Source of the DNA: Chloroflexota bacterium
GTDB lineage: Bacteria; Chloroflexota; Anaerolineae; B4-G1; DUEL01
Length of the DNA: 34,878 nt
Reading direction: 5' to 3'
Assembly (NCBI GenBank): GCA_011388675.1
Contig: DROW01000074.1
Coordinates: 1 to 34,878, forward strand
Shown: in pieces, positions 4,495 through 32,899 of the stretch
Numbering within the stretch: position 1 is the stretch's first letter
Layout: every line of letters starts with the position of its first letter
Notes under the pieces: model-generated
Told to the model about the DNA's origin: nothing
Database searches by the model: none
Seen by the model: only the letters and a program-made list of their open reading frames with translations
Translations under genes and position numbers: made by a program

Positions 4495-5199
4495 GTGCGT
4501 CGACGGTTCCGCGTCCTCGCGATCGATGACGAACCGGACGTTCTGAAGATGTTCAAGGTGATCCTGGGCGCGGAAGGCTTGGAGATCCTGACGGCCCAGG
4601 ACGCGCTCTCCGGCCTGCGGATGGCCTACCAGCACCACCCCGACGTCATCCTCCTCGATGTGGTTATGCCGGAGGTGGACGGCTTCGAGGTCTGTCGGCG
4701 GCTGCGGGAAATGACCGACGTCCCCATCATCTTCGTCACCGCCCGGGGCACCATTGAGGACGTCGTCCGTGGCTTCTCCCTCGGGGCGGACGACTACATC
4801 GTCAAGCCGTTCGACCGCTCGGAACTGATCAGCCGCCTCTTCGCCTGTCTGCGCCGCGCTGGCGAACGGGAGGACCGGCAACTGGAGGTCCTCTTCCCCG
4901 CCGCCTCCGTGATGCTGGATTGCGGCCGCCACGAACTGGTCATCGGCAACCGAACGGTGTACCTGACCCCTAAGGAGTTCGAAGTCCTGCGCCTCCTTAT
5001 CCAGCACGCTGGCCGGGTCCTGAGCCCGGACGCCATCCTGACGCGCGTGTGGGGGCCGGAGCGGATCGGCGAGCCGGATCTGGTGAAGCAGTACATCTAC
5101 CGGCTACGGCGCAAGATCGAGCCGGACCCCCGCTCCCCTCGCTACATCCGCACCGTCCGTGGTAGCGGCTATTTCTTCGACTCGGAGGATCTGCTCTAG
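4495..5199 (+). CDS. OmpR/PhoB-family response regulator 1 (orphan)
   Basis: 234 residues, GTG start with GGGGAGGAG upstream. The receiver domain (1-120) has the acidic pair Asp11/Asp12, phospho-acceptor Asp55 in LLDVVMPEVDG, Thr in FVTARG, and Lys104 in VKPF, so it looks phosphorylatable. The winged-helix DNA-binding domain (about 135-232) contains LTPKEFEVLRLL, a recognition region around LVKQYIYRLRRKIEPDP, and the wing RTVRGSGYFF. It should bind DNA when phosphorylated. No histidine kinase is adjacent, so its partner is elsewhere. It has its own promoter and is followed by two hairpins, so it is probably monocistronic. It is a clear relative of regulator 2, with the same architecture and many shared segments such as MPE-x-DG. 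Confidence 0.95.
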   Translation: MRRRFRVLAIDDEPDVLKMFKVILGAEGLEILTAQDALSGLRMAYQHHPDVILLDVVMPEVDGFEVCRRLREMTDVPIIFVTARGTIEDVVRGFSLGADDYIVKPFDRSELISRLFACLRRAGEREDRQLEVLFPAASVMLDCGRHELVIGNRTVYLTPKEFEVLRLLIQHAGRVLSPDAILTRVWGPERIGEPDLVKQYIYRLRRKIEPDPRSPRYIRTVRGSGYFFDSEDLL

Positions 5200-5321: not shown

Positions 5322-5358
5322 AACCCCTCCCACGGGGGAGGGGTTTTCGTCGTTTTTT
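5322..5358 (+). terminator. Rho-independent terminator after response regulator 1
   Basis: A 10-bp stem AACCCCTCCC (5322-5331) / GGGAGGGGTT (5336-5345) with a 4-nt loop is followed by T-rich sequence TTTTCGTCGTTTTTT (5344-5358). It separates the transcript of regulator 1 from regulator 2. The last Ts run into a possible -35 box of the next promoter. Confidence 0.75.
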
Positions 5359-5399
5359 GACCTTTCTTTCACCTAACACATACGACATTCTGGTATTTT
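5357..5399 (+). promoter_or_regulatory. Possible promoter region for regulator 2 / Wzz-like gene
   Basis: TTGACC at 5357-5362 is a near-consensus -35, but the hexamers 17-18 nt on (atacga/tacgac) are poor. Alternatively TGGTATTTT at 5391-5399 could be an extended -10 with a weak -35. The patch is AT-rich and lies directly after a terminator and before a gene, so a promoter is expected here; the exact boxes are uncertain. Confidence 0.35.
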
Positions 5400-5432
5400 A
5401 AGAATTGGTGTCTGGAGTTCGGAGGAGGGAAT

Positions 5433-6152
5433 ATGAAGGATACGGTGCTGGTGATCGACGATGACCCCCAGTTGCTGAGATTGCTGCAACTGACCCTGGA
5501 ACGGGAGGGATTTCGCGTCGTCACCGCAGTGGATGGCGAGGAGGGGCTTCGCCGTGCGTATGAGACGCGCCCCGACATCATCGTCCTCGACATTATGATG
5601 CCGGAGATGGACGGCTGGACCGTTTGTCGGCGTCTGCGGGACGTGTGCGACGTCCCCATCCTGATCCTCTCCGCACGGACAGAGACCGAATCGGTCATCA
5701 AGGGGCTTTCCCTCGGCGCTGACGACTATTTGACCAAGCCGTGTAGCCTCAAGGAACTGGTCTTCCGCATCCGAGCCATCCTTCGCCGCGCGCGGACGAG
5801 CGCGAAAGAAACCTGGCAAGAGGTGTACGACGACGGCAACCTGTTCATCGACCTGACCAGTGGGACTGTCAAGCGCCAGGGGGTCCCCATCCACCTCACC
5901 CCCACCGAGCAACGCCTCTTCCTGTATCTGGTCCGCCAGGAGGGCCGGGTGGTACCTCACAGAGAACTGCTCACCAGCGTCTGGGGCCCGGAATACGCGG
6001 AGGAGGTCGGATATCTGAGTGTCTACATCCGCTACCTGCGGCGGAAAATCGAGGCCGATCCATCGGAGCCTCGCTATATTCGGACGAGGTGGGGGGTCGG
6101 TTATTACTTCGCAGGGGATCATCTCCCGGACGGGAAGGAGCAGGCAGAATGA
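5433..6152 (+). CDS. OmpR/PhoB-family response regulator 2, coupled to Wzz-like gene
   Basis: 239 residues, ATG start with GGAGGAGGG upstream. The receiver has the acidic cluster IDDDP, phospho-acceptor Asp53 in VLDIMMPEMDG, Ser in LSART, and Lys102 in TKPC. The winged helix spans about 140-232, with LTPTEQRLFLYLV and a wing TRWGVGYYF. All residues needed for phosphorylation are present. No histidine kinase lies nearby. The stop codon overlaps the ATG of the Wzz/BY-kinase-like gene (ATGA), so the two are almost certainly translated together. This suggests that the regulator and the chain-length-control protein act on the same process, plausibly expression of the glycan operon downstream. The target is inferred from position only. 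Confidence 0.95.
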   Translation: MKDTVLVIDDDPQLLRLLQLTLEREGFRVVTAVDGEEGLRRAYETRPDIIVLDIMMPEMDGWTVCRRLRDVCDVPILILSARTETESVIKGLSLGADDYLTKPCSLKELVFRIRAILRRARTSAKETWQEVYDDGNLFIDLTSGTVKRQGVPIHLTPTEQRLFLYLVRQEGRVVPHRELLTSVWGPEYAEEVGYLSVYIRYLRRKIEADPSEPRYIRTRWGVGYYFAGDHLPDGKEQAE

Positions 6153-7948
6153 GCAGACGCTTCTGGTGGTATTTGGGGATCTTTCGTCGTTGGGGATGGT
6201 TGCTGGCGCTCAGTGTGCTGATTCCCGCGCTGATCACGAGCGTCCTCGTAGCCCGCCAGCCCAACTTCTATCGGGCAAAGGCCACGCTGATGGTCGGAAC
6301 CAGCCTGCAGACCCCTGATCCCGATCCCTGGCAACTGACCATCGCCAACAACCTGGCCAACGCCTACGCCCGGCTGGCGCAGGAAGGGCCGGTGACTCAG
6401 GCGGTCATCGAACGGCTGAACCTCGACCGGAGCCCGGGCGAACTGGCGTCCCAGATCACGACCCGGGTCTACCCGGAGGCCCAACTGCTGGAGATCCAGG
6501 TGGTGGATCAGGACCCGCAACTGGCGGCGGCCATCGCCAACGCCATCGCCGAAGAATTGGTCCGGCGCAGCCCGGTATCTCAGGAGGAGGAGCAAACACG
6601 ACAGCAGTTCATCCGTGCCCAACTGGACGACCTGGAGGCGCGAATCGAGCGGCTGGACGGGGAGATCACCGAACTGCAGGACACGCTGCCCGAATTGACC
6701 TCCGCAGCGGAACTGGAGGAAGCGCAGCGCCGTCTGGAGCAATTGGAGACGCTGCGCACCAACTATCAAGCGACCTACGCCGACCTGCTCGACTCGCTGC
6801 GCGTGGAGGCCCCTAACGCCCTCTCCATCTTCGAGCGCGCTGCGCCACCCACGGTGCCCCTCCCCCACCGGGCGGGGATGGCGACGGGGGCGGCGGCCCT
6901 CGCGGGGCTGGCGCTGGCGGTCGCCGGTATGCTGATCGTCGAGCGATTGGACGATTCGGTGCGCTGGGAGGCCGTAGAGGAGGGGACATTCCTGAACTAT
7001 CCGGTGCTGGGGGCGCTCCCTCGCCTCAGGGTGAAACGCGATCGAGTGATCTCCGCCCTCTCCCTCCGGCCAACCGACCTGGAAGCCCTGCGGAACCTGC
7101 GGGCCGCCCTGATGATGGAAATAGAAGAACACTGGCCTGCGGCCGTGCTGGTCGCCGGGGCGGAGGCCGGGGTGGGGAGGACCCTCCTCACAGCAAGCCT
7201 GGGAAAGATCCTGGCGGAGGCTGGCCTGCGTACCCTCCTGATCGACGGGGATCTGCGCGCCCCTTCGCTCCACGAATGGTTCGACCAGCCCAACGTGGAG
7301 GGCCTGGGCGAACTCCTGCGGGGGAGCAGGGACGCCTCCGCCGCCTGGAGCCTCATCGAGCGGACCCCGACCGGCGTGGACCATCTGTACCTGCTGACCG
7401 CCGGGCGCCCCGTCGCCGATCCGACGATCCTGTTCGTCGGCGAGCGCTGGGGGATGCTGCTGAGGGAACTGAAGCAGGGGGTCGACGTCATCCTCGTCGA
7501 CAGCCCGCCGGGCCTTACGTCCCCCGAGGTCCTCCTCGCCGCGCGGGAGTGCGACGGCGTGCTGACGCTCTGTGGACACCGGCGGACACAGACCGTTTCC
7601 CTCCTCCAGATGCTGAGGTCGCTAGCCGAGCACAGTCCGGGTGTGCCTGTGTGGCTGGCGTTCAACCGGGTGCCCCGGGGGCAACTGCGCCTGCACCCGA
7701 CACCGGAGTGGACCGTAGAGCAGGCCCCGCTGACCGAACGGCCTACACTGACCGTCGGCGAGGCCGCACAGGTCCTGGGGGTACGTCCCGCCGTGGTCCG
7801 CCGCTGGTGCCGCACCGGCCGACTGAAGGCGGAGCGCGTCCATTGGCGCTGGATCATCCGGCGGGAGGACCTGGAGAAGTTCCTGCCGTCCGTGGAGGTC
7901 GCAGAGGTCGAGAGTCCCTCTCAAAGAGAGCCAGCCCCGTTGAGTTGA
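6149..7948 (+). CDS. Wzz/BY-kinase-like copolymerase with C-terminal excisionase-type HTH
   Basis: 599 residues; the ATG at 6149 overlaps the preceding stop and has AAGGAG at 6134-6139. The order is a membrane helix (15-35), an external Wzz domain with coiled coil (about 148-214), a Pro-rich stretch and second helix (about 243-265), then a cytoplasmic BY-kinase-like P-loop domain. In that domain Walker A reads AEAGVGRT with Arg344 where Lys is expected, Walker A' is intact (IDGDLR, 365-370), and Walker B is VILVDSPP (447-454). I see no tyrosine after about residue 460, so the usual autophosphorylated Tyr tail is absent. In its place residues 534-580 form a helix-turn-helix of the excisionase/MerR-like type (LTVGEAAQVLGV ... 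VVRRWCRTGRLKA ... IIRREDLEKFL). Known Wzz/BY-kinase proteins control chain length. Here kinase activity is doubtful and DNA or protein binding by the tail is inferred. Confidence 0.88.
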   Translation: MSRRFWWYLGIFRRWGWLLALSVLIPALITSVLVARQPNFYRAKATLMVGTSLQTPDPDPWQLTIANNLANAYARLAQEGPVTQAVIERLNLDRSPGELASQITTRVYPEAQLLEIQVVDQDPQLAAAIANAIAEELVRRSPVSQEEEQTRQQFIRAQLDDLEARIERLDGEITELQDTLPELTSAAELEEAQRRLEQLETLRTNYQATYADLLDSLRVEAPNALSIFERAAPPTVPLPHRAGMATGAAALAGLALAVAGMLIVERLDDSVRWEAVEEGTFLNYPVLGALPRLRVKRDRVISALSLRPTDLEALRNLRAALMMEIEEHWPAAVLVAGAEAGVGRTLLTASLGKILAEAGLRTLLIDGDLRAPSLHEWFDQPNVEGLGELLRGSRDASAAWSLIERTPTGVDHLYLLTAGRPVADPTILFVGERWGMLLRELKQGVDVILVDSPPGLTSPEVLLAARECDGVLTLCGHRRTQTVSLLQMLRSLAEHSPGVPVWLAFNRVPRGQLRLHPTPEWTVEQAPLTERPTLTVGEAAQVLGVRPAVVRRWCRTGRLKAERVHWRWIIRREDLEKFLPSVEVAEVESPSQREPAPLS

Positions 7949-8045
7949 AGACCAACCGCCCGGGCCCTGATGGGCTGTGACGGCGATGATGCGCACACGT
8001 TGGATGCCATCGTCTCCTCCGGGCGGTTCGTGATGGGAGGTGAGT
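7949..8045 (+). promoter_or_regulatory. Leader of the export operon with 10-bp inverted repeat
   Basis: This 97-bp gap is the largest one downstream of regulator 2. It carries a perfect inverted repeat AACCGCCCGG (7954-7963) / CCGGGCGGTT (8019-8028) with 55 nt between the arms, ending just before the ribosome site of the permease (GGAGG, 8036-8040). It could fold as a long-range hairpin in the mRNA or serve as a two-site operator. I see no convincing promoter boxes in it. Confidence 0.35.
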
Positions 8046-8841: not shown

Positions 8842-10101
8842 ATGGCCGCGATTGAGTTCGAGAACGTGCGGAAGGCCTACCGTCGCCGATTCGGGCGCGG
8901 AAGTCTGCGGGATGCGCTGCCCACCCTGCTGGGTAAAGTGGTCGGACGGGACGGGAAGGACCACGGGGACTTGCTCTGGGCGCTGGACGGGGTGAGTTTC
9001 GAGGTCGAAAAAGGAGAGGTGCTGGGGATCATCGGCCCCAACGGGGCGGGGAAAACGACCATCCTGAAGTTGCTCTCCCGGGTCACCCGTCCCACCAGCG
9101 GCCGGATCACCGTGCGCGGGCGGGTCTCGGCCCTCATCGAACTGGGCGCAGGCTTCCACCCCGACCTGAGCGGGCGGGAGAACATCTACCTCAACGGCGC
9201 TATCCTGGGGCTGAAACGAAGGGAGATCGACGAGAAGTTCGACAGCATCGTCGCCTTTTCCGAACTGGAGGAGTTCATCGACATGCCGGTCAAGCGGTAC
9301 TCCTCCGGCATGTTCGTCCGCCTGGGCTTCGCCGTGGCGGTCCACGTCGATCCGGACGTGCTGCTCATCGACGAGGTGCTTGCGGTCGGAGACTACCTCT
9401 TCCGCGACAAATGCGTCCGGCGGATCCAGGAGTTCCGGGACGCCGGCAAGACGATGGTCATCGTCTCCCACAACAAGGAGATGATTCAAAAACTGTGCGA
9501 CCGGGCCCTGTTCCTCTACAAGGGCAAGGTGATGTTCCTGGGGGAGACGCAGAAGGCGCTGGACCTTTACCACACCGGCTTTGCGGGCGAAGCGCTGCGG
9601 CGGGAGATGGAGAGGGAGGGAAACGCTGGCCGGGAGATGGAGATCACGCGGGTGGAACTGCTGGATGGAGAGGGAAAGCCACGCAACTCGTTCCTCACGA
9701 CCGAGCCGATGCGCGTGCGCATCCACTTCCGCGCCAACGCGCCGGTGGACAACCCTGTCTTCTACTCCCGCATCCGTCAGGGGTACCGCATCCTCCACGG
9801 CACCACGACGGCCCGGTTCGACATCCAGGGCCACTTCGAGCCGGGGGACGAGGGCGTCGCTGAGGTCTTCTACGAAAGCCTGAACCTCCTCAACGGGGAA
9901 TACAACATCAACGTCGGCATCAAGCGGGACCACTTCTCCCCGCTGACCTACGACCAGATCGACGGAGCGGTCCACTTCGTGGTCGGTTCCCGATTCGACC
10001 AGGGCGGAGCGCTGGTATATCTGCCGCACTGGTGGGAGGTGGAGAAGGTGGGGGGCAAGGAGCAAGAGAGCAAGGGAGCAGGGGAGCAGGGGGACGGATG
10101 A
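8842..10101 (+). CDS. wzt: Polysaccharide ABC exporter ATPase with C-terminal glycan-binding domain (Wzt type)
   Basis: 419 residues. The ATPase part (1-250) has Walker A GPNGAGKTT (65-73), signature YSSGM (153-157), Walker B VLLIDE (173-178) and the switch His in IVSHN. Residues about 267-393 are an added beta-sandwich domain (MEITRVELLDGEGK ... VHFVVGSRF). In Wzt proteins this domain recognises the modified end of the finished glycan, so the exporter is probably substrate-selective. The ATG at 8842 has GGGGAGGG at 8828-8834; an upstream ATG at 8818 overlaps the permease end but lacks a ribosome site. The last 15 or so residues (KEQESKGAGEQGDG) are encoded by an 8-nt tandem repeat and are unlikely to belong to the fold. 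The stop overlaps the next start (ATGA). Confidence 0.95.
   Translation: MAAIEFENVRKAYRRRFGRGSLRDALPTLLGKVVGRDGKDHGDLLWALDGVSFEVEKGEVLGIIGPNGAGKTTILKLLSRVTRPTSGRITVRGRVSALIELGAGFHPDLSGRENIYLNGAILGLKRREIDEKFDSIVAFSELEEFIDMPVKRYSSGMFVRLGFAVAVHVDPDVLLIDEVLAVGDYLFRDKCVRRIQEFRDAGKTMVIVSHNKEMIQKLCDRALFLYKGKVMFLGETQKALDLYHTGFAGEALRREMEREGNAGREMEITRVELLDGEGKPRNSFLTTEPMRVRIHFRANAPVDNPVFYSRIRQGYRILHGTTTARFDIQGHFEPGDEGVAEVFYESLNLLNGEYNINVGIKRDHFSPLTYDQIDGAVHFVVGSRFDQGGALVYLPHWWEVEKVGGKEQESKGAGEQGDG
10058..10097 (+). repeat. 8-nt tandem array at the wzt 3' end
   Basis: Five successive 8-nt units (aggagcaa, gagagcaa, gggagcag, gggagcag, gggggacg) encode the C-terminal tail of the ATPase and end at the base before the next ATG (10098). 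The purine-rich units probably provide the ribosome-binding sequence of the downstream gene. Confidence 0.7.
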
Positions 10102-11738
10102 GGAAGACGTTGGTGCTGAGTATCGACAGCGGCTGTTGGGAGTACATCGATCCGCTGCTGGCGGCGGGGCGGATGCCGAACGTCGCCCGCCTGATCGAGA
10201 GGGGCGCGCGGGGCGTCCTGGAATCCACGATGCCCCCGATCACGCCGGTGGCCTTCTCCTCCTTTCTCACGGGCGTCAACCCGGGGAAACACGGCATCTT
10301 CGACTGGTCGCTGCGCCGGGAGGACGGCCGGGGCGGGATGGTCAACGCGGGTGCCCTGAAGGCCCCCCCCTTCTGGACCTACCTGAACCAGCATAGGGTC
10401 CGGGTCGGCCTGTTTAACGTACCGCTCACCTACCCCCCGCAACCCATCGATGGATTCATCGTGCCGGGGATCCCGGTCCCCCGCACCGCCCGCCGGTTCA
10501 CTTACCCGCCGGAGGCGCTGGACCGGATCGAGGAGCGATTTGGCCCATACCGAGTGGACGTCCCCCGCGATCTCCTGACCGAGGGGGTCGACGCCTACGT
10601 CCAGGCGTGGATCGAGTACGAGACGATGCAGACCGAGGCCGCGATGGCACTGGCGGAGGCCTACGGGGTCGACCTCCTGGTCTTCAACTACGCCTCGCTG
10701 GATCGGGTCAACCACTTCGCGCCGGGGATGGAGCACATCGCGCAGGTGCTGGTCAACGTGGATACGCAGATCGGTCGCTGGATGGAGCGGTTCCCGGAGG
10801 CGAACTTCGTCCTGATGTCCGACCACGGCTCCCGGCGTATCCGCACCGCCTTCCTGCTGGGCCCGTGGCTGGTCCAGCACGGGTACGCCGCCTACGGCGA
10901 ACACTCGCTGGACATTCCTCCCCACGAGGCCAACTTCGCCCTGGCCCGTTTTCTGCGCGAGAAAGGGATGCAGGGCAGGAAGGAGAAACTCGTGCGGGCA
11001 GGGCTTCGCCTCTTGCTTAGAGGGATGCCCGCCCCGCTGCGCCGCCGCTTCTGGGAGCGCGCATACCGGTCCGCACCGGAAGCGCTGGCCTACCGGTTCA
11101 CCGAGCGACTGGACTGGGCCCGGACGAAGGTCTTTGCGATGTCCAACAGTGGCCCGCTTCTGATCAACACGGGAGCGGGCGACGGCAGGGGGGCCGTGGG
11201 GCCCGACGAGTACGAACGGATCCGAGACGCATTGATCCGCGACCTCCTGTCTGTCCGGGACCCCCAGGGGCGTCCCGTTTTCTCCCGGGTGTACCGACGA
11301 GAGGAGATCTACCACGGCCCCGCCCTCGCCGACGCGCCCGACCTGATCGCCGATCACTACGAGTCGGATTGCGACATCGTGGTGGACAACAAACCCGGCC
11401 TGTTCTGCTTCGTCGACCGGCTCGGCCGGTTCGGCGACCATTCCCGCAGGGGAATCCTGGTGGCAAGCGGCCCAGACTTCGCCTCCCGTCCCCCGTCCGA
11501 TCCGGTCTACGCCTCCATCCTCGACCTGCCGGCGACCCTGCTCCACCTCTACGGCGCGCCGCTGCCGCGAGATTGGGATGGGCAGGTCCTGCGAAACCTG
11601 CTGGCGACGCCTCTCGCCGAGCGGGAGGTCGTCTACGCGGACACAACCGCGCCGGAGACGGGGACGCCGGGGGAAGGGTACAGCGCAGACGAGGAGGTCC
11701 AGGTGATGGAACATCTGCGCGACCTGGGATACCTGTAG
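10098..11738 (+). CDS. Alkaline-phosphatase-superfamily phosphodiesterase 1
   Basis: 546 residues, type I phosphodiesterase/nucleotide pyrophosphatase fold. Metal and catalytic positions visible are Asp10 in SIDSG, candidate nucleophile Thr49 in PPITPVAF, the segment FLTGVNPGKHGIFD, then SLDRVNH, SDHGS, and a late His in FGDHSRRG. There is no export signal or membrane helix, so it should work in the cytoplasm. Related proteins are common in glycan loci and may cleave or transfer phosphodiester-linked groups or act on nucleotide-sugars; the substrate here is unknown. The C-terminus ends EHLRDLGYL, much like the second family member at 32900 (REKLRRLGYIE). The start overlaps the wzt stop. Confidence 0.85.
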   Translation: MRKTLVLSIDSGCWEYIDPLLAAGRMPNVARLIERGARGVLESTMPPITPVAFSSFLTGVNPGKHGIFDWSLRREDGRGGMVNAGALKAPPFWTYLNQHRVRVGLFNVPLTYPPQPIDGFIVPGIPVPRTARRFTYPPEALDRIEERFGPYRVDVPRDLLTEGVDAYVQAWIEYETMQTEAAMALAEAYGVDLLVFNYASLDRVNHFAPGMEHIAQVLVNVDTQIGRWMERFPEANFVLMSDHGSRRIRTAFLLGPWLVQHGYAAYGEHSLDIPPHEANFALARFLREKGMQGRKEKLVRAGLRLLLRGMPAPLRRRFWERAYRSAPEALAYRFTERLDWARTKVFAMSNSGPLLINTGAGDGRGAVGPDEYERIRDALIRDLLSVRDPQGRPVFSRVYRREEIYHGPALADAPDLIADHYESDCDIVVDNKPGLFCFVDRLGRFGDHSRRGILVASGPDFASRPPSDPVYASILDLPATLLHLYGAPLPRDWDGQVLRNLLATPLAEREVVYADTTAPETGTPGEGYSADEEVQVMEHLRDLGYL

Positions 11739-13743: not shown

Positions 13744-15600
13744 ATGGCGGGGCTGGTGGGATTCGTCGGCGAAGTTTCCCCTGCGGAGGGGGAACGGCGA
13801 CTCCGCGAGATGGCGCAGCGGCTGATCGCACAGGGCGCGGAACGGATCGACCTGTACCTCGAAGCGGGGGTCGGCCTGGCGCACGTCGCGCTGGACGCGG
13901 CCGCCCGGGAGAACCAGCCGATCTGGAACGAGGACCGCTCCCTCTGCATCCTGATGGAAGGGGAGGTTTACGACTGCGCCGACGAGAAACGCCGCCTGGT
14001 CGAGAAGGGGCACCGGTTCCGCACCGATAGCGACGCCGAATATCTGCTCCACCTGTACGAGGAGTTGGGTGAGGATTTCGCCCTTCGGCTCAACGGCCCC
14101 TTCGTAGCGGCGATCTGGTCGCCGGAGAGACGGCGGCTGCTGGTGGTCAACGACCGATGGGGGCTGCAACCCCTTTTCTACGCCCAGGTCGACGGACGGT
14201 TTCTCCTGGCCAGCGGCGCGCGGGCCATCCTGGCCGATCCGGCCTATACGCCGCGGGTGGACCTGATCGGGCTCTCGGAGTTCCTGACTTTTGAGCACGC
14301 GCTGGAGGACCGGACCCTCTTCGAGGGTATCCGGCTCCTGCCTCCCGCCTCGGTGCTGACCGTTGAGGGGGATGCGCTGACGGTTCGGTCGTACTGGGAG
14401 TTCCGGTTTGTCGAGGAGTACGAGGACCATCCCGAAGCGTGGTACATTGAGGGGTTGGTCCACCATCTCCGCCAGGCTGTCCGCCGGTGCCGACGGGGGG
14501 ACGGTCCGGAGGGGGTGTTGCTCAGCGGCGGGCTCGATTCGCGCGCGGTGCTGGCAGCGATGGACGGGGCAGGGGGAGGGGCCCACACCTTCACCTTCGG
14601 CATCCCCGGCTGCGACGACGCCCGGCTGGCGCAGGAGGTGGCGAAGAGGGCGAGGACTCGCCATCACTTCGTCCCGCTGCGGCCGGAGGACTTGCCCCGG
14701 ATGGTGGACGAGGGGGTATGGCTCGGCGACGGGCTGAACAGCGCGGTCCATATGCACATCCTCACCGCCCTCCCCGAAGCCGCCCGCCACGTGCGGGTCG
14801 TGTACACCGGCTCGCTGGGGGACTCGATTATGGGGCAGCACCTCCGCCGCCCGCTGGTAGCGATCTACCCGGAAGACGTGCTGGCCCGGATGCTCTTCCG
14901 ACACTACAACACGGGCTTCTCGGAGCCGGAACTGGCGAGGCTACTGCACCCCTCGCTGTACCGGAGGGTTCGGGGAAGGCCCTTTGAAGCGTTCCGTCGG
15001 ACGCTGGCGGAATCCCGCGCCATCCTTGCCGCCAACCGGCGAGAGCACTACTCCATCCGGCAGAACGAACGCCGGTGGATCCTGGAGGGACAGAGGTTGT
15101 TGCGGAGCCGTTTGGTGGTGCGCACGCCGTTCTATGACAACGACCTGGTGGACTTTATGGTCCGGGTGCCGCCGGGTCTGCGGCTGGAGGGATACCTGTA
15201 CCGGCGGGCCTTCGCCGCCGCCTTCCCTCACCTGGCGAAAATCCCGTGGGCGGCGACCGGGGAGCCGCTGACCTCCTCGACGCGGGGTACGCTCATCCGT
15301 CTTGGTCGCCAACTGCGCTGGCGGCTGCGCTCGGCCGGGTTGCGCTTCCTGCCCCCGCCGCGCCGCCGCCCCTACGCCGACTACGCAGGGTGGCTGCGCA
15401 CGGTACTGCGGCCGTGGGTCGAGGAGGTGCTGCTGGGCGAGCGGGCGTTGAACCGGGGATTCTTCGACCCTGACGCCGTCCGCGCCCTGGTGGAAGAACA
15501 CGTGGCCGGGGCGGACCACACGCGGAAACTCGGCGTGCTCATCACCTTCGAACTGTGGTGTCGGTACTTCCTGGACGGAGAGGGAGGGAAGGAGGGATGA
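13744..15600 (+). CDS. Asparagine-synthetase homologue lacking the Cys nucleophile
   Basis: 618 residues, full length for the AsnB family. The N-terminal glutaminase-type domain is present but begins MAGLVGF; the catalytic Cys2 of true amidotransferases is replaced by Ala, so ammonia cannot be drawn from glutamine in the usual way. The synthetase domain has the ATP-pyrophosphatase loop LSGGLDS at 260-266, followed by TFTFGIPGCDDARLAQEVA and YTGSLGDSIMG. Members of this kind in glycan clusters (WbpS-like) amidate uronic acids. Here free ammonia or another nucleophile would be needed. The start could also be the GTG at 13732, which overlaps the preceding stop, but that would still not give a Cys at position 2. 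The stop overlaps the next ATG. The gene end is purine-rich (GGAGAGGGAGGG). Confidence 0.88.
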   Translation: MAGLVGFVGEVSPAEGERRLREMAQRLIAQGAERIDLYLEAGVGLAHVALDAAARENQPIWNEDRSLCILMEGEVYDCADEKRRLVEKGHRFRTDSDAEYLLHLYEELGEDFALRLNGPFVAAIWSPERRRLLVVNDRWGLQPLFYAQVDGRFLLASGARAILADPAYTPRVDLIGLSEFLTFEHALEDRTLFEGIRLLPPASVLTVEGDALTVRSYWEFRFVEEYEDHPEAWYIEGLVHHLRQAVRRCRRGDGPEGVLLSGGLDSRAVLAAMDGAGGGAHTFTFGIPGCDDARLAQEVAKRARTRHHFVPLRPEDLPRMVDEGVWLGDGLNSAVHMHILTALPEAARHVRVVYTGSLGDSIMGQHLRRPLVAIYPEDVLARMLFRHYNTGFSEPELARLLHPSLYRRVRGRPFEAFRRTLAESRAILAANRREHYSIRQNERRWILEGQRLLRSRLVVRTPFYDNDLVDFMVRVPPGLRLEGYLYRRAFAAAFPHLAKIPWAATGEPLTSSTRGTLIRLGRQLRWRLRSAGLRFLPPPRRRPYADYAGWLRTVLRPWVEEVLLGERALNRGFFDPDAVRALVEEHVAGADHTRKLGVLITFELWCRYFLDGEGGKEG

Positions 15601-16595
15601 TCATCTCACGCACGCCTCTGCGGATCAGTTTCGTCGGCGGAGGATCGGACCTGCCGGCCTTCTACGAGCGGGAGCCCGGCGCGGTCGTCAGCACGGCGAT
15701 CAACAAGTACATCTACATCACCGTCAACCGGAAGTTCGACCACAAGATCCGCGCCAGTTACTCCCGCACCGAGATCGTGGACAGCGTGGACGAACTACAG
15801 CACGAATTGATCCGGGAGGCCCTGAAGGTGACGGGCATCGAACGGGCCATCGAGATCACCTCCATCTCCGACATCCCCTCTCGGGGGACGGGGCTGGGCT
15901 CCTCCAGCACCTACACCGTCGGTCTCCTGAACGCACTCTACGCCTACAAAGGACGGATGGCGGGCGCGGAACGATTGGCCAGGGAAGCCTGCGAGATCGA
16001 GATCGAACGGTGCGGTAAGCCGATCGGCAAGCAGGATCAGTACATCGCAGCCTACGGAGGGCTGAAGTACATCCGTTTCTATCCCGACGGCGAAGTGGAC
16101 GTCGTGCCCATCCTTTGCGCCCCTCAGACCCGTCGGGAACTGCAGCGGCGGCTGCTGCTGCTCTACACCGGTCTCACCCGCCGCGCCGACGACATCCTGG
16201 CTGAGCAATCCCGCAACTGCGCGATGGACGAGACGAAGCGGGCCAGCCTCCGCCGGATGGTCCGCCTCGCCGAGCAGATGGTGGAAGCGCTCGGTCGGAA
16301 CGAACTGGACGGCTTCGGCGAGGTGCTGCACGCCAACTGGCTGGAAAAGCGGCGGCTCGCCAGTGGGATCACCAACCCGGACATCGACCGCTGGTACGAG
16401 ACGGCACGAGCGCACGGGGCCATCGGAGGGAAGATCCTGGGTGCGGGCGGTGGCGGCTTCCTACTGCTGTACGCCCCCCCGGAACGGCACGAGGAGATCT
16501 GCCGCGCCCTCCCCGAACTGCGGCCGGTCCCCTTCCGCTTCGAGCCCCAGGGCAGCCGGATCATCTACGTGGAGGAGAACGGGTATGTCTCCTAG
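15597..16595 (+). CDS. hddA: GHMP kinase, D-glycero-D-manno-heptose-7-phosphate kinase type
   Basis: 332 residues. GHMP motifs: N-terminal SRTPLRISFVGGGSDLP (3-19), the ATP loop IPSRGTGLGSSST near 97-109, and the C-terminal GGKILGAGGGGFLLLY near 278-293. This pattern matches HddA-type kinases, which phosphorylate heptose-7-phosphate at C1 on the way to GDP-heptose; related fucose and other sugar kinases look similar, so the exact sugar is uncertain. It is cytoplasmic. No isomerase (GmhA), phosphatase (GmhB) or nucleotidyltransferase (HddC) gene is in the window, so any pathway must be completed elsewhere. The start overlaps the preceding stop, and the end overlaps the next gene by 11 bp. Confidence 0.85.
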   Translation: MIISRTPLRISFVGGGSDLPAFYEREPGAVVSTAINKYIYITVNRKFDHKIRASYSRTEIVDSVDELQHELIREALKVTGIERAIEITSISDIPSRGTGLGSSSTYTVGLLNALYAYKGRMAGAERLAREACEIEIERCGKPIGKQDQYIAAYGGLKYIRFYPDGEVDVVPILCAPQTRRELQRRLLLLYTGLTRRADDILAEQSRNCAMDETKRASLRRMVRLAEQMVEALGRNELDGFGEVLHANWLEKRRLASGITNPDIDRWYETARAHGAIGGKILGAGGGGFLLLYAPPERHEEICRALPELRPVPFRFEPQGSRIIYVEENGYVS

Positions 16596-22045: not shown

Positions 22046-22058
22046 ATTGGAGGAGAGG

Positions 22059-25000
22059 ATGGAGAGGACAAAAGGGTGGATGGTGCTGGGAGCGCTGGGG
22101 GGAGGAGTGGCGGTGGTCGCTCTCCTGCTGGGCCTGTTGAGCGCCTCGCCGACGGTGCGTGCCTCGCCGCCCGTGGAGGGGAATCCCCTCTCGTTCGACA
22201 CCGCCGAGCCTCTGTTCGCGCCGGACGAGGACGTGCTGGGGCTTGCCGTGGCAGACCTGGACCGCGACGGTGATCCGGACCTGGCCTTCGCCCCCGGTGC
22301 GACGGTGCGCATCGCCGCAGGGGAGGGGTTCGCCACCTCGACCGACGTGGGAACCTGCGCCGGGACGGTGAACAGATTGGCAGTGGCCGACCTCGACCGG
22401 GACGGCAGAATCGACCTGATCGCTTTCTGCGACGGCGAGGTCCGCCTGTGGCGAAACCCCGGCGATCCCTTCACCATGCCCTGGACGGAAACCGGCGCGG
22501 TGACCGCGTCCGCCGTGCTGACCTACCCGGCGGGGACCGTGGCCGACCTGGATCAGGACGGCGCGCCCGACCTGGTCGGCGCGGGAAGCGACGGAAGGAT
22601 CTACCTCTGGCGCAATCCGATGGACCTCGGTGGCCCCTTCACCGCCGACTGGGGGCCTCCGACCCCGATGGACCCCGCCGACGGGCCGGTCCACGCCGTC
22701 GCCCTGGCCGATATGAATTGGGACGGTCGGCCGGATCTGCTGGCGGCGGTCGGTGGGGAGATGCGCGTCTACCAGAACCCCAGCGCGCCGTTCTCCTCCC
22801 CGTGGTCCGTCTCCCAGGCCTGGGCCGGGGCCGGGAGCGATCTTCTCTCCATCGTCACGGCCGATTTCGACCGGGACGGCCTCCCGGACCTCGCGGCAGG
22901 CGATGCGGCAGGCCGCATCCTGGGCTGGTCGAATCCCTTCACGCCGGGGCAGCCCTTCGGTGGCATGCCGCCCTCGGCGACGATCCTGGGCACGCTGGGC
23001 GGCCCGGCCTTCGCGCTCACCGCGGCCGATCTCGACCACGACGGCAAACCGGACCTGGCCGCTGCTGGGGGCGGGGCAACCCCCAGCCTCCACGTCTGGC
23101 GGAACGCCGACGGGCTGGGTGCGCCGTGGGATGGGGGGCAGGTGGGGACGTGGGGCGACGCGCTGCGCGCGCTGGCGACGGCGGATCTGGACGGGGACGG
23201 GGACGACGACCTGATCGCCGGAAGTGAGAGCAGCGCGGCCGCCGAGGTCGTCCGTTGGTCCAACGCCATCCTCCATCGTAACGCGCTCTTCCCCGAGAAG
23301 GCCACCCCCATCGAAAGCCGCCCCGCCGACGTGCAGGCACTGGCCGCTGGCGACCTGAACCGGGACGGCATACCCGACCTAGTCGGCGGCGACAGCCTGG
23401 GCTACGTCCTCATCTGGGAAAGCGGCGGCTCGCCCACCACGGCTCTCTGGACCGAGTACGTCGTCGGGCGGATCGGTGAGGTGAAGGCGGTCGCTCTGGG
23501 CGACCTGGACGGAGACGGCGACCTGGAGATCGTCACCGGACACGACGACCCGCCCCGCCTGCTGGTCTGGCGGAACGAGGGAACCGGCCTGGAGGGACCG
23601 TGGCGGGACACCGTCGTCGGCGCCCCCCCCGATCCGGTGGCGACCATCGCGGTGGCCGACCTGGACCGGGACGGTCATCCCGACCTGGTCACCGGCTTGG
23701 GGGAGCATTCCCTCAACCCGCACCCGGACCCCGACGCCACGGTCGTCCTCTGGCGCAACGACGGCACCCCCTTCGACACCCCCTGGCCCTCCACCAATGC
23801 CGCCGTCCTCACCTACAGCGTCAACAGCGTGGCGGTGGGGGACCTGGACGGGGACGGGTGGCCGGACATCGTGGCCGGGACCGACCACGGAGAGCCGCTG
23901 GGGGACGCGGACAACCCGGTGCCCCGCGCCCAGTGGGCCGACCTCTTCCAACTGCTCGCCCTCCGCAACCCCGGCACCCCCTTCGCAGGGCCGTGGACCG
24001 TCGCCATCGTGGGGCGGGACCCGGCGACGGTCACCCTGGGGCCAGAGGACAACCCCAGCCACTACCACGGCTTCTGGGGCGCGACCGTCAACGCCGTCGC
24101 CCTGGGTGATCTGGACCGGGACGGCGACCTGGATATCGTCTCCGGCGACGGGGTCGAGGCGGACTACCAGTTGAAGGTGTGGGAGAACGACGGCACCCCC
24201 TTCGATGGGCAACCGGCCTCGTTCCACTGGACTTGGCAGCCCACGGCGGTCTGGTACGGCACGCCCCCCAGCCCTCCCTGGATGGGCGGCGCGGTGGTGG
24301 CGCTGACGGTGGCGGACTTCAACCGAGATGGCTGGCCGGACATCGCGCCGGGGATCACCCGCTGGCTGCGGATGTGGTTCGAGAACACCGGCACGCCGTT
24401 CGGAAGTTCCATCACCGACACCCACTGGATCGCCCACACCATCGTCCCCAACCAGGAGATCGTCCGCGCCGTCGTGGCGGCGGACTTCGATCGGGACGGC
24501 GACGCCGACCTCGCCACCGGCAGCGAGCGATGGGACGGCCCGGAACTCACCTACTGGCACAACGACGGGGGCCACATCTGCGAGATCGCCGCGTCGACCG
24601 ATGCGCCACCGATCCAGCACCTGGAGACGGACGACGTCCTGGCGATCAGAGTAAGCCACGAGGGCCAGGACAGCGAAGAGCAGGCCCGCCTGGTCCGCTG
24701 GCGGCTCCGCTTCACCGGGCCGGACGGTACGCCGTTGACCAGCGAGCAGGCCAACGACCTGATCGATACGCTCTGGATCTACCGGGACGGTGGGAACCAA
24801 CGGTGGACCACGGGGGATACGCCCGTCCTCACGACGACCACGATGAGCCTGGACAGCGAGGGGTATCAGACGTTGACCTTCGCCCTTGGAGACCCTCTGA
24901 TGGTCCTCTCGCCGGGGGAGACGGTCTACTACTTCGTCGTCGTGCGCATCGCCGACGGGGCGATGAGCGCCACGCCCAACGAGTTCCAGGTCTGGTTCGA

Positions 25001-26354
25001 CGCCGACGCCGACTCGCTGGCAGAGGGCGTCGACAGCGGAGCCAGCCTCTTCATCGGCGATACCGATCCCGTCGGCTCCGGCATCGTGGCGGCGGTCGGT
25101 CCACCCGCCTCCATCGGCGTGGAAAGTCGAGGGGATGGGAAGGGGACCGAGGTGGAGACGTGGGAGATCGCCTCCGGCTATTTCTACGACTTCCACGCCG
25201 TCGCCCGCGATGCGCTGGGCCACTTCGTCCAGGCCGAACCGGCCACGTGGACGTTGGTGCCGGTGAGCGGTGGAGTCGTTCCGGGCGACCTGTCGGTAGG
25301 CCCCGACGGGACCTGGGCCCGCTTCTCCGGCCACCTGACCGGCACGGCGCGCCTGGTGATCACCCACACCACGCTAGGGACCGACACGACGGGCCTGATC
25401 CGCGTGACGCCCCCGCCGACCCAGATGGTCCTGGAAGCCGACCCGCCGGAGATGGTCGCCGATGGGACCTCCAGCATCACCCTGCGGGCCTACCTGTGGG
25501 ACGGCCCGGGAGATCCGGTGGCGGACCACGTGCCGGTGACCTTCACGGTGGTCGGCGGCGAGGCATCGGCCCATCTTCCTGCCGACCCCTTCGTCACGAC
25601 GACGTTGGGCGGCGTCGCCTCCGCCCCTCTCCTGGCCGACATCCGCACCGGCCAGGTCCGGGTGCGGGCGGAGACGGGCAGGGTGACGGACGTGGTCACC
25701 GTAACCCTCCGGCCCGGCCCGCTCGACCGCTTCCGGGTGAAAGGTTACTCCACGGTGGTCTACGCCGGCGAGCACCTGTTCACGGGACCGGAGGTTACCG
25801 CCCTCGACCTGTACGGCAACGTGAAGACCGACTACACCGGCGCTGTCTACTTCCTCTCCAGCGACCCCCAGGCGACCCTTTCGTACACCCTCGGCTCCCC
25901 GTACACCTTCACCCCCGCCGATGGAGGCGTGCACTGGTTTACGGGGACTGCCTTCGTGCTGAGAACGGCGGGGATGCAGACGATCACCGTGACCGATGGG
26001 ACGGTCGCCGAGCCCTTCGGCCCGATCGAGGTCCGCCACGCCTTTGCGGTGGGCCGGATCGAGTTGCATATGGCCCCCGCTGTGATCACCGCCGGGGAAC
26101 GGACCACCGCCGTCGTCGAAGGGTTCGACCTTTACGGCAATCCGATGGGAGAACTGGACCCCATTATGTGCAAATACACGATCGACGCGGAGGCCGGCGG
26201 CGAATGGGTGGGGAACGTGTACACGACGGAACGGTTCGGAACGTGGACGGTCGTAGCCACGACGCGCACGGACCCGCCCCACAGCGACTCCGCGACCCTC
26301 TGGGTGCTGCCCACGGCGCGGATCTTCCTGCCGCTGGTCCTGGCAGAACGATAG
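22059..26354 (+). CDS. Large secreted FG-GAP/VCBS beta-propeller and Ig-like surface protein
   Basis: 1431 residues from ATG 22059 (GGAGG at 22049-22053; a TTG at 22047 is a weaker option). A signal sequence spans 7-30, with a possible cleavage after VRA35. Between about residues 60 and 815 I count 14 FG-GAP repeats with calcium-loop signatures such as DLDRDGDPDLA, DLDQDGAPDLV and DFNRDGWPDIA; fourteen fits two seven-bladed propellers. Residues about 838-1014 form a separate beta-rich domain. Three Ig/BIg-like domains follow (about 1121-1221, 1223-1327, 1329-1419), two with the LDLYGN/FDLYGN motif. The C-terminus is ARIFLPLVLAER. It should be a calcium-binding surface or matrix protein, perhaps binding the glycan made by the operon. 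There is no LPXTG motif and no C-terminal membrane helix. Confidence 0.9.
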   Translation: MERTKGWMVLGALGGGVAVVALLLGLLSASPTVRASPPVEGNPLSFDTAEPLFAPDEDVLGLAVADLDRDGDPDLAFAPGATVRIAAGEGFATSTDVGTCAGTVNRLAVADLDRDGRIDLIAFCDGEVRLWRNPGDPFTMPWTETGAVTASAVLTYPAGTVADLDQDGAPDLVGAGSDGRIYLWRNPMDLGGPFTADWGPPTPMDPADGPVHAVALADMNWDGRPDLLAAVGGEMRVYQNPSAPFSSPWSVSQAWAGAGSDLLSIVTADFDRDGLPDLAAGDAAGRILGWSNPFTPGQPFGGMPPSATILGTLGGPAFALTAADLDHDGKPDLAAAGGGATPSLHVWRNADGLGAPWDGGQVGTWGDALRALATADLDGDGDDDLIAGSESSAAAEVVRWSNAILHRNALFPEKATPIESRPADVQALAAGDLNRDGIPDLVGGDSLGYVLIWESGGSPTTALWTEYVVGRIGEVKAVALGDLDGDGDLEIVTGHDDPPRLLVWRNEGTGLEGPWRDTVVGAPPDPVATIAVADLDRDGHPDLVTGLGEHSLNPHPDPDATVVLWRNDGTPFDTPWPSTNAAVLTYSVNSVAVGDLDGDGWPDIVAGTDHGEPLGDADNPVPRAQWADLFQLLALRNPGTPFAGPWTVAIVGRDPATVTLGPEDNPSHYHGFWGATVNAVALGDLDRDGDLDIVSGDGVEADYQLKVWENDGTPFDGQPASFHWTWQPTAVWYGTPPSPPWMGGAVVALTVADFNRDGWPDIAPGITRWLRMWFENTGTPFGSSITDTHWIAHTIVPNQEIVRAVVAADFDRDGDADLATGSERWDGPELTYWHNDGGHICEIAASTDAPPIQHLETDDVLAIRVSHEGQDSEEQARLVRWRLRFTGPDGTPLTSEQANDLIDTLWIYRDGGNQRWTTGDTPVLTTTTMSLDSEGYQTLTFALGDPLMVLSPGETVYYFVVVRIADGAMSATPNEFQVWFDADADSLAEGVDSGASLFIGDTDPVGSGIVAAVGPPASIGVESRGDGKGTEVETWEIASGYFYDFHAVARDALGHFVQAEPATWTLVPVSGGVVPGDLSVGPDGTWARFSGHLTGTARLVITHTTLGTDTTGLIRVTPPPTQMVLEADPPEMVADGTSSITLRAYLWDGPGDPVADHVPVTFTVVGGEASAHLPADPFVTTTLGGVASAPLLADIRTGQVRVRAETGRVTDVVTVTLRPGPLDRFRVKGYSTVVYAGEHLFTGPEVTALDLYGNVKTDYTGAVYFLSSDPQATLSYTLGSPYTFTPADGGVHWFTGTAFVLRTAGMQTITVTDGTVAEPFGPIEVRHAFAVGRIELHMAPAVITAGERTTAVVEGFDLYGNPMGELDPIMCKYTIDAEAGGEWVGNVYTTERFGTWTVVATTRTDPPHSDSATLWVLPTARIFLPLVLAER

Positions 26355-31584: not shown

Positions 31585-32879
31585 GGCGACCGTTGCGCGT
31601 CCTGTTCATCGCCCAGGTCTTCCCCTACCCTCTGGACAGCGGCCCCAAGATCCGGGCTTACTACGTCCTCCGCTATCTGGCTTCCCGCCACCGGGTGACG
31701 CTGGTGGCTTTCGTCACCCACCCCCGGGAACTGCAGTTCGTGGACCACCTGGCCTCCTTCTGCGAAGCGGTCTATCCGGTGCAACGGCCCCGCTCCCTCT
31801 GGCGGGAGGGGCTGGCGATGGCCCGCAGTCTCTTCACCGGCCGCCCCTTCATGATCGAGCGCCACTTCGACCGGGGGATGGCCCGCCTGGTGAAGGACCT
31901 GGCTGCGAGGGAACGGTTCGACCTGATCCACGTGGACCAGATCAAGGTGGCCCAGTACGGCCTGCGGATCAAGGGGGTCCCCCGCGTCATCGACAAGCAC
32001 AACGCCTACGCGCTGGTGCTGAAGGGCGTGGCCCAGACCGACCCCTCCCCGCTGCGGCGGCTGGTGGCCCGGCTGGACTGGCGCCGGATGGCCCGGTACG
32101 AGGGAATGGTCTGCCGCGTCTTCGACGGGGTGGTCGCCGTTACAGAGATGGATCGAGACGCACTGCTCCGGTTTTCCGGCAACGGGCGGGAGATCCCCGT
32201 GATCCCCATCGCCACCGACTGCGGGGCCGTCCGGCCGGTCCGCCGCCGGACCGACGCACGGGACATCCTGATCCTGGGCTCCCTCTTCTACCCCCCCAAC
32301 GTCGATGGGGCGGTCTGGTTCACCCGGGAGATCTTTCCCCGGGTGCGGGCGGAGGTGCCGGACGCGCGGCTGCTCCTGGTCGGCGGGCGACCCGCGCCGG
32401 AGGTGGTCGCCCTGGGGCGGGAGGACGGGGTGGAGGTCACGGGCTACGTGGAGGACCTGCAACCCTATCTGGAGCGGACGGCGGTGATGGCGGTGCCGCT
32501 CCGCTTCGGCAGCGGGATGCGGGTGAAGATCCTGGACGGCCTGGCCTGGGGTCTGCCGATGGTCTCCACCTCCGTCGGCTGCGAGGGGATCGACGTGACG
32601 CCTGGACAGGACATCCTGCTGGCCGACGCGCCGGAGACCTTCGCCGCCCAGGTGGTGCGGGTATTGCAGGATCGGCACTTGGCCGATGCGCTCTCCGCCA
32701 ACGGACGCCGCTTGGCGGAACAGCGGTACGACTGGCGGGTCCTCTACCCCCGTTGGGACGAGGTCTACGCCAGTGTGCTGGGAGATGGTGAGATAACCAA
32801 ACACCACAGAGGCACAGAGAACACGGAGAAATCTCAAGAAAACAGAGAAACCTCTGTGTCCTCTGCGCCTCTGTGGTGA
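31581..32879 (+). CDS. GT4-type glycosyltransferase D with repeat-derived tail
   Basis: 432 residues; ATG overlaps the preceding stop. The N-terminus RVLFIAQVFPYPLDSGPKIR and the C-terminal domain (LILGSLFYPPNVDGAVWF, GSGMRVKILDGLAWGLPMVST) make it a close paralogue of the enzyme encoded at 28006, of Stp1/TIGR03087 type. At the donor-binding position it has Asp319 where its paralogue has Glu316. From about residue 407 to the stop the protein reads KHHRGTENTEKSQENRETSV..., which comes from the inverted repeat at 32802-32878. The original stop was probably destroyed or displaced by that element. The enzyme domain is complete without this tail. Confidence 0.92.
   Translation: MRRPLRVLFIAQVFPYPLDSGPKIRAYYVLRYLASRHRVTLVAFVTHPRELQFVDHLASFCEAVYPVQRPRSLWREGLAMARSLFTGRPFMIERHFDRGMARLVKDLAARERFDLIHVDQIKVAQYGLRIKGVPRVIDKHNAYALVLKGVAQTDPSPLRRLVARLDWRRMARYEGMVCRVFDGVVAVTEMDRDALLRFSGNGREIPVIPIATDCGAVRPVRRRTDARDILILGSLFYPPNVDGAVWFTREIFPRVRAEVPDARLLLVGGRPAPEVVALGREDGVEVTGYVEDLQPYLERTAVMAVPLRFGSGMRVKILDGLAWGLPMVSTSVGCEGIDVTPGQDILLADAPETFAAQVVRVLQDRHLADALSANGRRLAEQRYDWRVLYPRWDEVYASVLGDGEITKHHRGTENTEKSQENRETSVSSAPLW
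32802..32878. repeat. Dispersed inverted repeat (CACCACAGAGGC family) at a gene junction
   Basis: The left arm at 32802-32828 and right arm at 32852-32878 match as inverse complements at 24 of 27 positions around a 23-nt AT-richer loop. The arms begin caccacagaggc and end gcctctgtggtg. The element encodes the tail of the GT4 enzyme, contains most of its stop codon and ends 21 bp before the next start. A decayed relative lies at 3227-3298. The transcript could fold into a strong hairpin, but no T-run follows. Confidence 0.85.
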
Positions 32880-32899
32880 AGAAACTTGGGAGGAACATT

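Follow-up and report, generated by a model that had tools for sequence, protein, structure and literature searches.

Helix-turn-helix tails on Chloroflexota co-polymerase/BY-kinase proteins suggest that surface-sugar assembly may be coupled directly to DNA

Many systems for capsule and exopolysaccharide synthesis have a BY-kinase as their master regulator and, to our knowledge, little is understood of the way in which the state of polymer assembly reaches the chromosome or the expression of genes. In the case of Wzc, the K540M variant is unphosphorylated and octameric, and phosphorylation of the tail takes the octamer apart (PMC8285477). The Streptococcus pneumoniae BY-kinase CpsD binds the partition protein ParB, the mobility of which changes with CpsD phosphorylation, with no DNA binding by CpsD itself (PMC4574921). 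Finally, the small regulator BldC touches DNA via Arg30, Trp31 and Lys33 together with a basic wing, and direct repeats are bound head-to-tail (PMC5859096).

The window analysed here is a stretch of 34,878 nucleotides from a Chloroflexota bacterium of the class Anaerolineae, order B4-G1 (contig DROW01000074.1, positions 1 to 34,878). Its plus strand harbors an open reading frame (6149-7948) encoding a Wzz/BY-kinase-type membrane protein of 599 amino acid residues with a C-terminal winged helix-turn-helix (HTH), the ATG of which overlaps the stop of an upstream response-regulator gene, RR-B, by 4 bp (ATGA). The initial annotation of this DNA had described two membrane helices, intact Walker A' and Walker B motifs, an Arg in place of the Walker A Lys, no tyrosine after about residue 460 and a C-terminal HTH; all of these features were recovered, the last tyrosine lying even earlier, at residue 414, and no C-terminal Tyr cluster was found in the window protein. 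The features along the protein are as follows.

6197-6256, plus strand: first membrane helix, residues ~17-36 (Kyte-Doolittle peak 2.37)
6599-6799, plus strand: external coiled-coil region, residues ~151-217 (weak matches to several coiled-coil models, over 148-217)
6884-6940, plus strand: second membrane helix, residues ~246-264 (Kyte-Doolittle peak 2.14)
7154-7186, plus strand: Walker A region GAEAGVGRT, with R344 for Lys (aligned to Wzc K540; family alignment)
7235-7258, plus strand: Walker A' LLIDGDLR, residues 363-370, intact
7484-7510, plus strand: Walker B DVILVDSPP, residues 446-454, intact
7661-7741, plus strand: Tyr-free linker, residues 505-531, where the Tyr cluster of the relatives is situated
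7748-7885, plus strand: HTH_17/MerR-like winged HTH, residues 534-579 (Pfam, 44.7 bits; AlphaFold2)

Residues 18-135 matched the chain-length model NCBIfam TIGR01006 at an E value of 1e-12, under the curated cut-off, and matches of the relatives to the Wzz Pfam family were all sub-threshold. Residues 301-490 matched TIGR03029, TIGR01007 and Wzc models (E ~1e-20, all under curated cut-offs), while solved BY-kinases and BY-kinase models matched the protein at E values of ~1e-19 to 1e-20. The kinase domain of the window protein shares common descent with the BY-kinase domain and is nested in the tree among relatives bearing the Walker Lys and Tyr cluster. Apart from the window protein, the same genome has a canonical split pair of co-polymerase and BY-kinase on another contig (C146; L002 and L003), with GEGKS intact and a short YY at its end.

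A frameshift, a gene fusion or an assembly artefact, for which the fragmented state of the source genome (268 contigs, 81% complete) might speak and for which no positive support was found, is practically ruled out, because the same uninterrupted ORF is present in independent genomes. In the congener Thermoflexia bacterium isolate J88 (L035/G192) a full-length orthologue is 77% identical end to end, and a profile search of 396 genomes of the class brought the HTH-tailed loci to 20 in nine family-level groups. Six further members of the order show the whole architecture, with 39-48% identity over the alignment, and one partial copy was also detected (G305). Beyond the order, HTH-tailed members occur in families f88, f110, f94, f118, f114 and f12, the f12 pair being divergent and on a long branch. 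The domain order for which the initial annotation had suggested a search is thereby real, and it is both ancient and conserved.

In the phylogenetic tree constructed from 101 Wzz+kinase cores with the tails removed, the HTH forms lie within one well-supported clade of 39 rows and require five label changes (three forced), a degree of clustering that none of 500 shuffles equalled (0/500 as low). This clade also includes several lineages devoid of the tail. The pattern fits one early HTH gain followed by several losses, though there may have been more than one gain. No HTH was seen in the inspected tails of the long members f10, f23 and f92. Samples of 301 and 161 genomes of the phylum gave, among their matches beyond the class, no convincing HTH tail; one match reaching query position 561 (G230) was rejected, as it crosses a stop codon and its ORF contains no HTH. 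Of 247 plasmid records that match BY-kinases, not one reaches 80% coverage of the query. The literature searched yielded no HTH-fused BY-kinase, in Chloroflexi or elsewhere; the parts are known, and their combination appears to be undescribed there.

The residue R344 occupies the position of Lys540 of the E. coli K-12 Wzc, and the catalytic Walker A Lys is therefore absent; the congener has Arg at the same position. In every HTH-tailed relative outside the window genus the Walker Lys is present, and in most of them a Tyr cluster adjoins the HTH on its N-terminal side (YGYLYGYGYY in L085/L086, YGYYYYSYG in L087 and YGYGYYY in L101). The statement of the initial annotation that the HTH stands in place of the tyrosine tail consequently fits the window genus alone, and replacement of the tail by the HTH is ruled out: because relatives carry Lys, Tyr cluster and HTH together, the HTH was added behind the tyrosine tail. 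Across the 101 relatives the Walker Lys and the tyrosine tail vanish together: the Lys proteins (n=86) have a mean of 5.8 Tyr in the tail segment, with at least three in 77 of them, and the Arg proteins (n=15) have a mean of 0.4 and never as many as three, figures that are not independent counts because the 15 Arg proteins come from about three separate lineages (the f23/f59/f62 clade, f92 and the window genus), over which the coupled loss still repeats. Since the Lys-to-Arg exchange and the loss of the tyrosine tail are coupled, and the relatives keep both Lys and tail, the protein of the window genus is very probably a derived, secondary pseudokinase that retains its HTH, and it is predicted to lack autophosphorylation. 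The co-polymerases of f92 (L102/L129, L126) and f23 (L019-L028, L033) also have Lys exchanged for Arg in Walker A and no tyrosine tail; these pseudokinases end in unrelated C-terminal tails without HTH. Pseudokinases thus recur among Chloroflexota co-polymerases, with Arg every time.

Such losses raise the question of whether the protein could be an ordinary co-polymerase with a dispensable passenger domain, kinase and HTH both decaying in the window genus. The lineages of the clade without a tail are compatible with this explanation, as is the D to N exchange in the Walker A' of the congener. It is nevertheless very unlikely, given that the HTH persists over an evolutionary distance as deep as a bacterial class and is 83% identical between the two congeners, with the contact residues kept in both. 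In this pair, dN/dS amounts to 0.11 in the N-terminal part and 0.25 in the kinase domain; the HTH, at ~0.22, is under purifying selection between the congeners.

The match of residues 534-579 to HTH_17 (Pfam E 1.6e-11) lies well above the cut-off of 27 bits and above chance, the concern on which the initial annotation had made its HTH assignment depend; TIGR01764 "excise" also matches the tail (31.6 bits, cut-off 28.8). All eight full-length order members score above the HTH_17 cut-off (39.7-56.5 bits), and only one other HTH_17 match is present in the source genome. The AlphaFold2 model of the domain (pLDDT 81.7) has a winged fold with a helix-helix-strand-strand-helix topology (H-H-E-E-H), and its nearest PDB folds are Xis (4j2n), BldC-DNA (6ama, 6amk) and RacA-DNA (5i44), the same three proteins being retrieved by a sequence profile search. 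Foldseek comparison with BldC and Xis gave TM values of 0.73-0.76 at probability 1.00, with E values of only ~4e-3 for this short domain. The whole cytoplasmic part (residues 282-599, two sequences) was modelled at pLDDT 36, and therefore no arrangement of the HTH on the kinase is claimed.

The residues R552, W553 and R555 of the window protein are the equivalents of Arg30, Trp31 and Lys33 of BldC. The Arg30 equivalent is present in 14 and the Trp31 equivalent in all 18 of the 18 family members, whereas at the position of Lys33 a basic residue (Arg, Lys or His) is found in the order, and Glu or Gln in f94, f118, f114 and f110. The net charge of residues 531-582 is +7, and it is lower in the distant members f94, f118 and f114. 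Judging from the predicted fold and these contact residues, the HTH tail may well bind DNA. None of the outcomes that the initial annotation had named as speaking against its reading came about.

The surroundings of the gene, which bear on what the HTH might contact, comprise the following features.

4495-5199, plus strand: RR-A, second OmpR-type response regulator (domain matches; locus comparison)
5322-5353, plus strand: terminator-like hairpin AACCCCTCCC/GGGAGGGGTT and T-rich run, before the RR-B promoter
5357-5374, plus strand: direct repeat TTGACCT-N4-TTCACCT, then extended -10-like TGGTATTTT; promoter of RR-B and the HTH-tailed gene
5433-6152, plus strand: RR-B, OmpR-type response regulator (Response_reg and Trans_reg_C), directly upstream
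7951-8031, plus strand: inverted repeat AACCGCCCGG/CCGGGCGGTT between the HTH-tailed gene and the ABC-2 transporter gene, kept in the congener (L035, 9798-9893)
8040-10101, plus strand: Wzm/Wzt-like ABC polysaccharide exporter with Wzt C-terminal domain

At each of the seven full-length order loci the gene immediately upstream is RR-B (63-87% identity). It is adjacent only in the order; in f88 it is located a few kb away, and in the other families it was not seen in the stretches examined. RR-A is near RR-B in most order loci, on the opposite strand in L089, and the terminator-like hairpin stands between RR-A and the RR-B promoter. An HTH fold may also be put to use in binding other proteins, and the constant pairing with RR-B within the order would suit an HTH that serves as a protein-interaction module, docking for instance the OmpR-type regulator or another protein of the cluster, with no DNA binding. 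The lower charge of distant members and their lack of a basic residue equivalent to Lys33 would agree with such a role. This explanation is nonetheless improbable: the recognition-helix Arg, the invariant Trp and the basic wing are retained in the order, and the tail persists in families where an adjacent RR-B was not seen.

Within positions 5340-5415, about 55 bp are almost unchanged in the congener, whereas the flanking intergenic DNA differs. The direct repeat with its 11-bp phase is conserved in 7/8 order loci, aligned without gaps in seven, and three repeats are present in L085/L086; by chance it arises in at most 0.5% of shuffles per locus, and none of 2000 shuffled sets had it at more than one locus. 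The exact pattern occurs once in the genome. A direct repeat with an 11-bp phase at -35 is the classic box of OmpR/PhoB-type regulators. The initial annotation had proposed 5340-5430 as a site for the tail, and a conserved repeat does exist there, but it cannot be credited to the HTH, because its phase and position fit an OmpR-type regulator and the next gene encodes one. As an element of the HTH the repeat was thus not accepted, RR-B explaining it at least as well, and it is provisionally regarded as a candidate RR-B site. The second region proposed for the tail, 7949-8045, contains the inverted repeat, the arms of which are kept in both congeners around a diverged loop and which folds as a strong RNA hairpin (z -2.7 and -2.6).

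Downstream of the window gene are situated the exporter, glycosyltransferases and other polysaccharide genes; these downstream genes vary between loci, while the pair with RR-B is constant. From this gene cluster context, the window protein may control polymer chain length. The same polysaccharide cluster also encodes a 1435-residue protein with many FG-GAP repeats (22047-26354) and two related type I phosphodiesterase/nucleotide pyrophosphatase-like proteins (10032-11738 and 32873-34570). A GHMP kinase 69-75% identical to that of the window (15555-16595) lies directly upstream of the HTH-tailed kinase in the distant families f118 and f114 (L146, L147, L148, L149, L150) and may mark a shared sugar pathway.

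The main rival to a regulatory role is a chromosome tether, in which the HTH would anchor nucleoid DNA at polysaccharide assembly sites in a RacA-like manner and coordinate envelope and chromosome, with no part in transcription. BY-kinases have a ParA/MinD-like fold, the nearest solved HTHs include that of RacA, which anchors the chromosome and is linked to the membrane, and a kinase that itself carries a DNA-binding domain would shorten the route to DNA which, for CpsD, runs via ParB (PMC4574921). We consider tethering unlikely, since no repeated candidate binding site was found in the genome, and the partners of the gene are a response regulator and a polysaccharide cluster rather than par or division genes.

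Taking together the observed domain order, its conservation, the coupled loss of Lys and tyrosines, the linkage to RR-B and the conserved promoter with the predicted HTH fold and contacts, the proposal that a class-wide Chloroflexota family of co-polymerase/BY-kinases with a MerR/BldC-like HTH tail feeds its assembly state back to DNA through oligomer-controlled binding is, in our estimation, evenly poised. Counted against it are the promoter repeat, for which RR-B accounts at least as well, the adjacency of RR-B in the order alone, the less basic distant members and the tail-less lineages in the clade. In the mechanism that we infer, which extends to DNA binding, its target, oligomerisation and the direction of regulation, the ancestral form would comprise a Wzz-type membrane part, a BY-kinase domain with the Walker Lys, the Tyr cluster and the HTH. 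The unphosphorylated protein, as in Wzc, would form a ring-like oligomer through its Wzz and kinase parts during polymer assembly, clustering several HTHs at the membrane and so enabling DNA binding; phosphorylation of the tyrosines just before the HTH would break up the oligomer and weaken binding. The assembly state would thereby be reported to DNA, most plausibly to the protein's own polysaccharide cluster, alongside RR-B. In the window genus the HTH would be controlled by oligomerisation, nucleotide or glycan state alone; by analogy to Wzc, which without this Lys is an unphosphorylated octamer, the window protein could be locked in the assembled state.

A bolder reading, which we advance only tentatively, is that a bacterial tyrosine kinase acts as a membrane-tethered transcription regulator, its ring gathering the HTH tails on promoter repeats during polymer synthesis and tail autophosphorylation freeing them, and that the window genus keeps this DNA-binding output after loss of the kinase. 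If it were true, chain-length control, tyrosine phosphorylation and transcription would be joined in one protein. A kinase whose phosphorylated tail runs into a DNA-binding domain makes the link from assembly to DNA testable in a single protein, and the forms that nature provides (Lys, Tyr cluster and HTH; Arg and HTH without Tyr; Arg without Tyr or HTH) tell the roles of kinase, scaffold and DNA binding apart.

Among known systems, CpsC/CpsD of S. pneumoniae is likewise a co-polymerase/BY-kinase tied to DNA machinery, there through ParB; unlike the window protein, it consists of two chains without HTH, and direct DNA binding by CpsD was not detected (PMC4574921). E. coli Wzc, a PCP-2a BY-kinase, shares with the window protein two membrane helices, an external domain and a ParA/MinD-like cytoplasmic kinase domain, all on a single chain, and the two are 25% identical over 162-501, with Walker A' and B kept; the window protein differs in R344 for K540, the absence of a C-terminal Tyr cluster, the added winged HTH and a shorter external domain. 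Streptomyces BldC shares the predicted winged-HTH fold, the contact Arg, Trp and basic residue and the lack of a MerR dimerisation coil, but it is a free soluble protein of 68 residues, whereas the HTH of the window protein is tethered to a membrane protein. Bacillus subtilis RacA has a MerR-like HTH in a protein joining DNA to the cell envelope, as the window protein may do, yet it is neither a kinase nor a glycan-assembly protein and has a different architecture. Finally, one-component regulators of the CadC/ToxR type combine an external sensing part and a cytoplasmic DNA-binding domain in one membrane protein; they belong to unrelated families, with an N-terminal OmpR-type HTH and no P-loop kinase domain, and their working principle is like that proposed here for the window protein.
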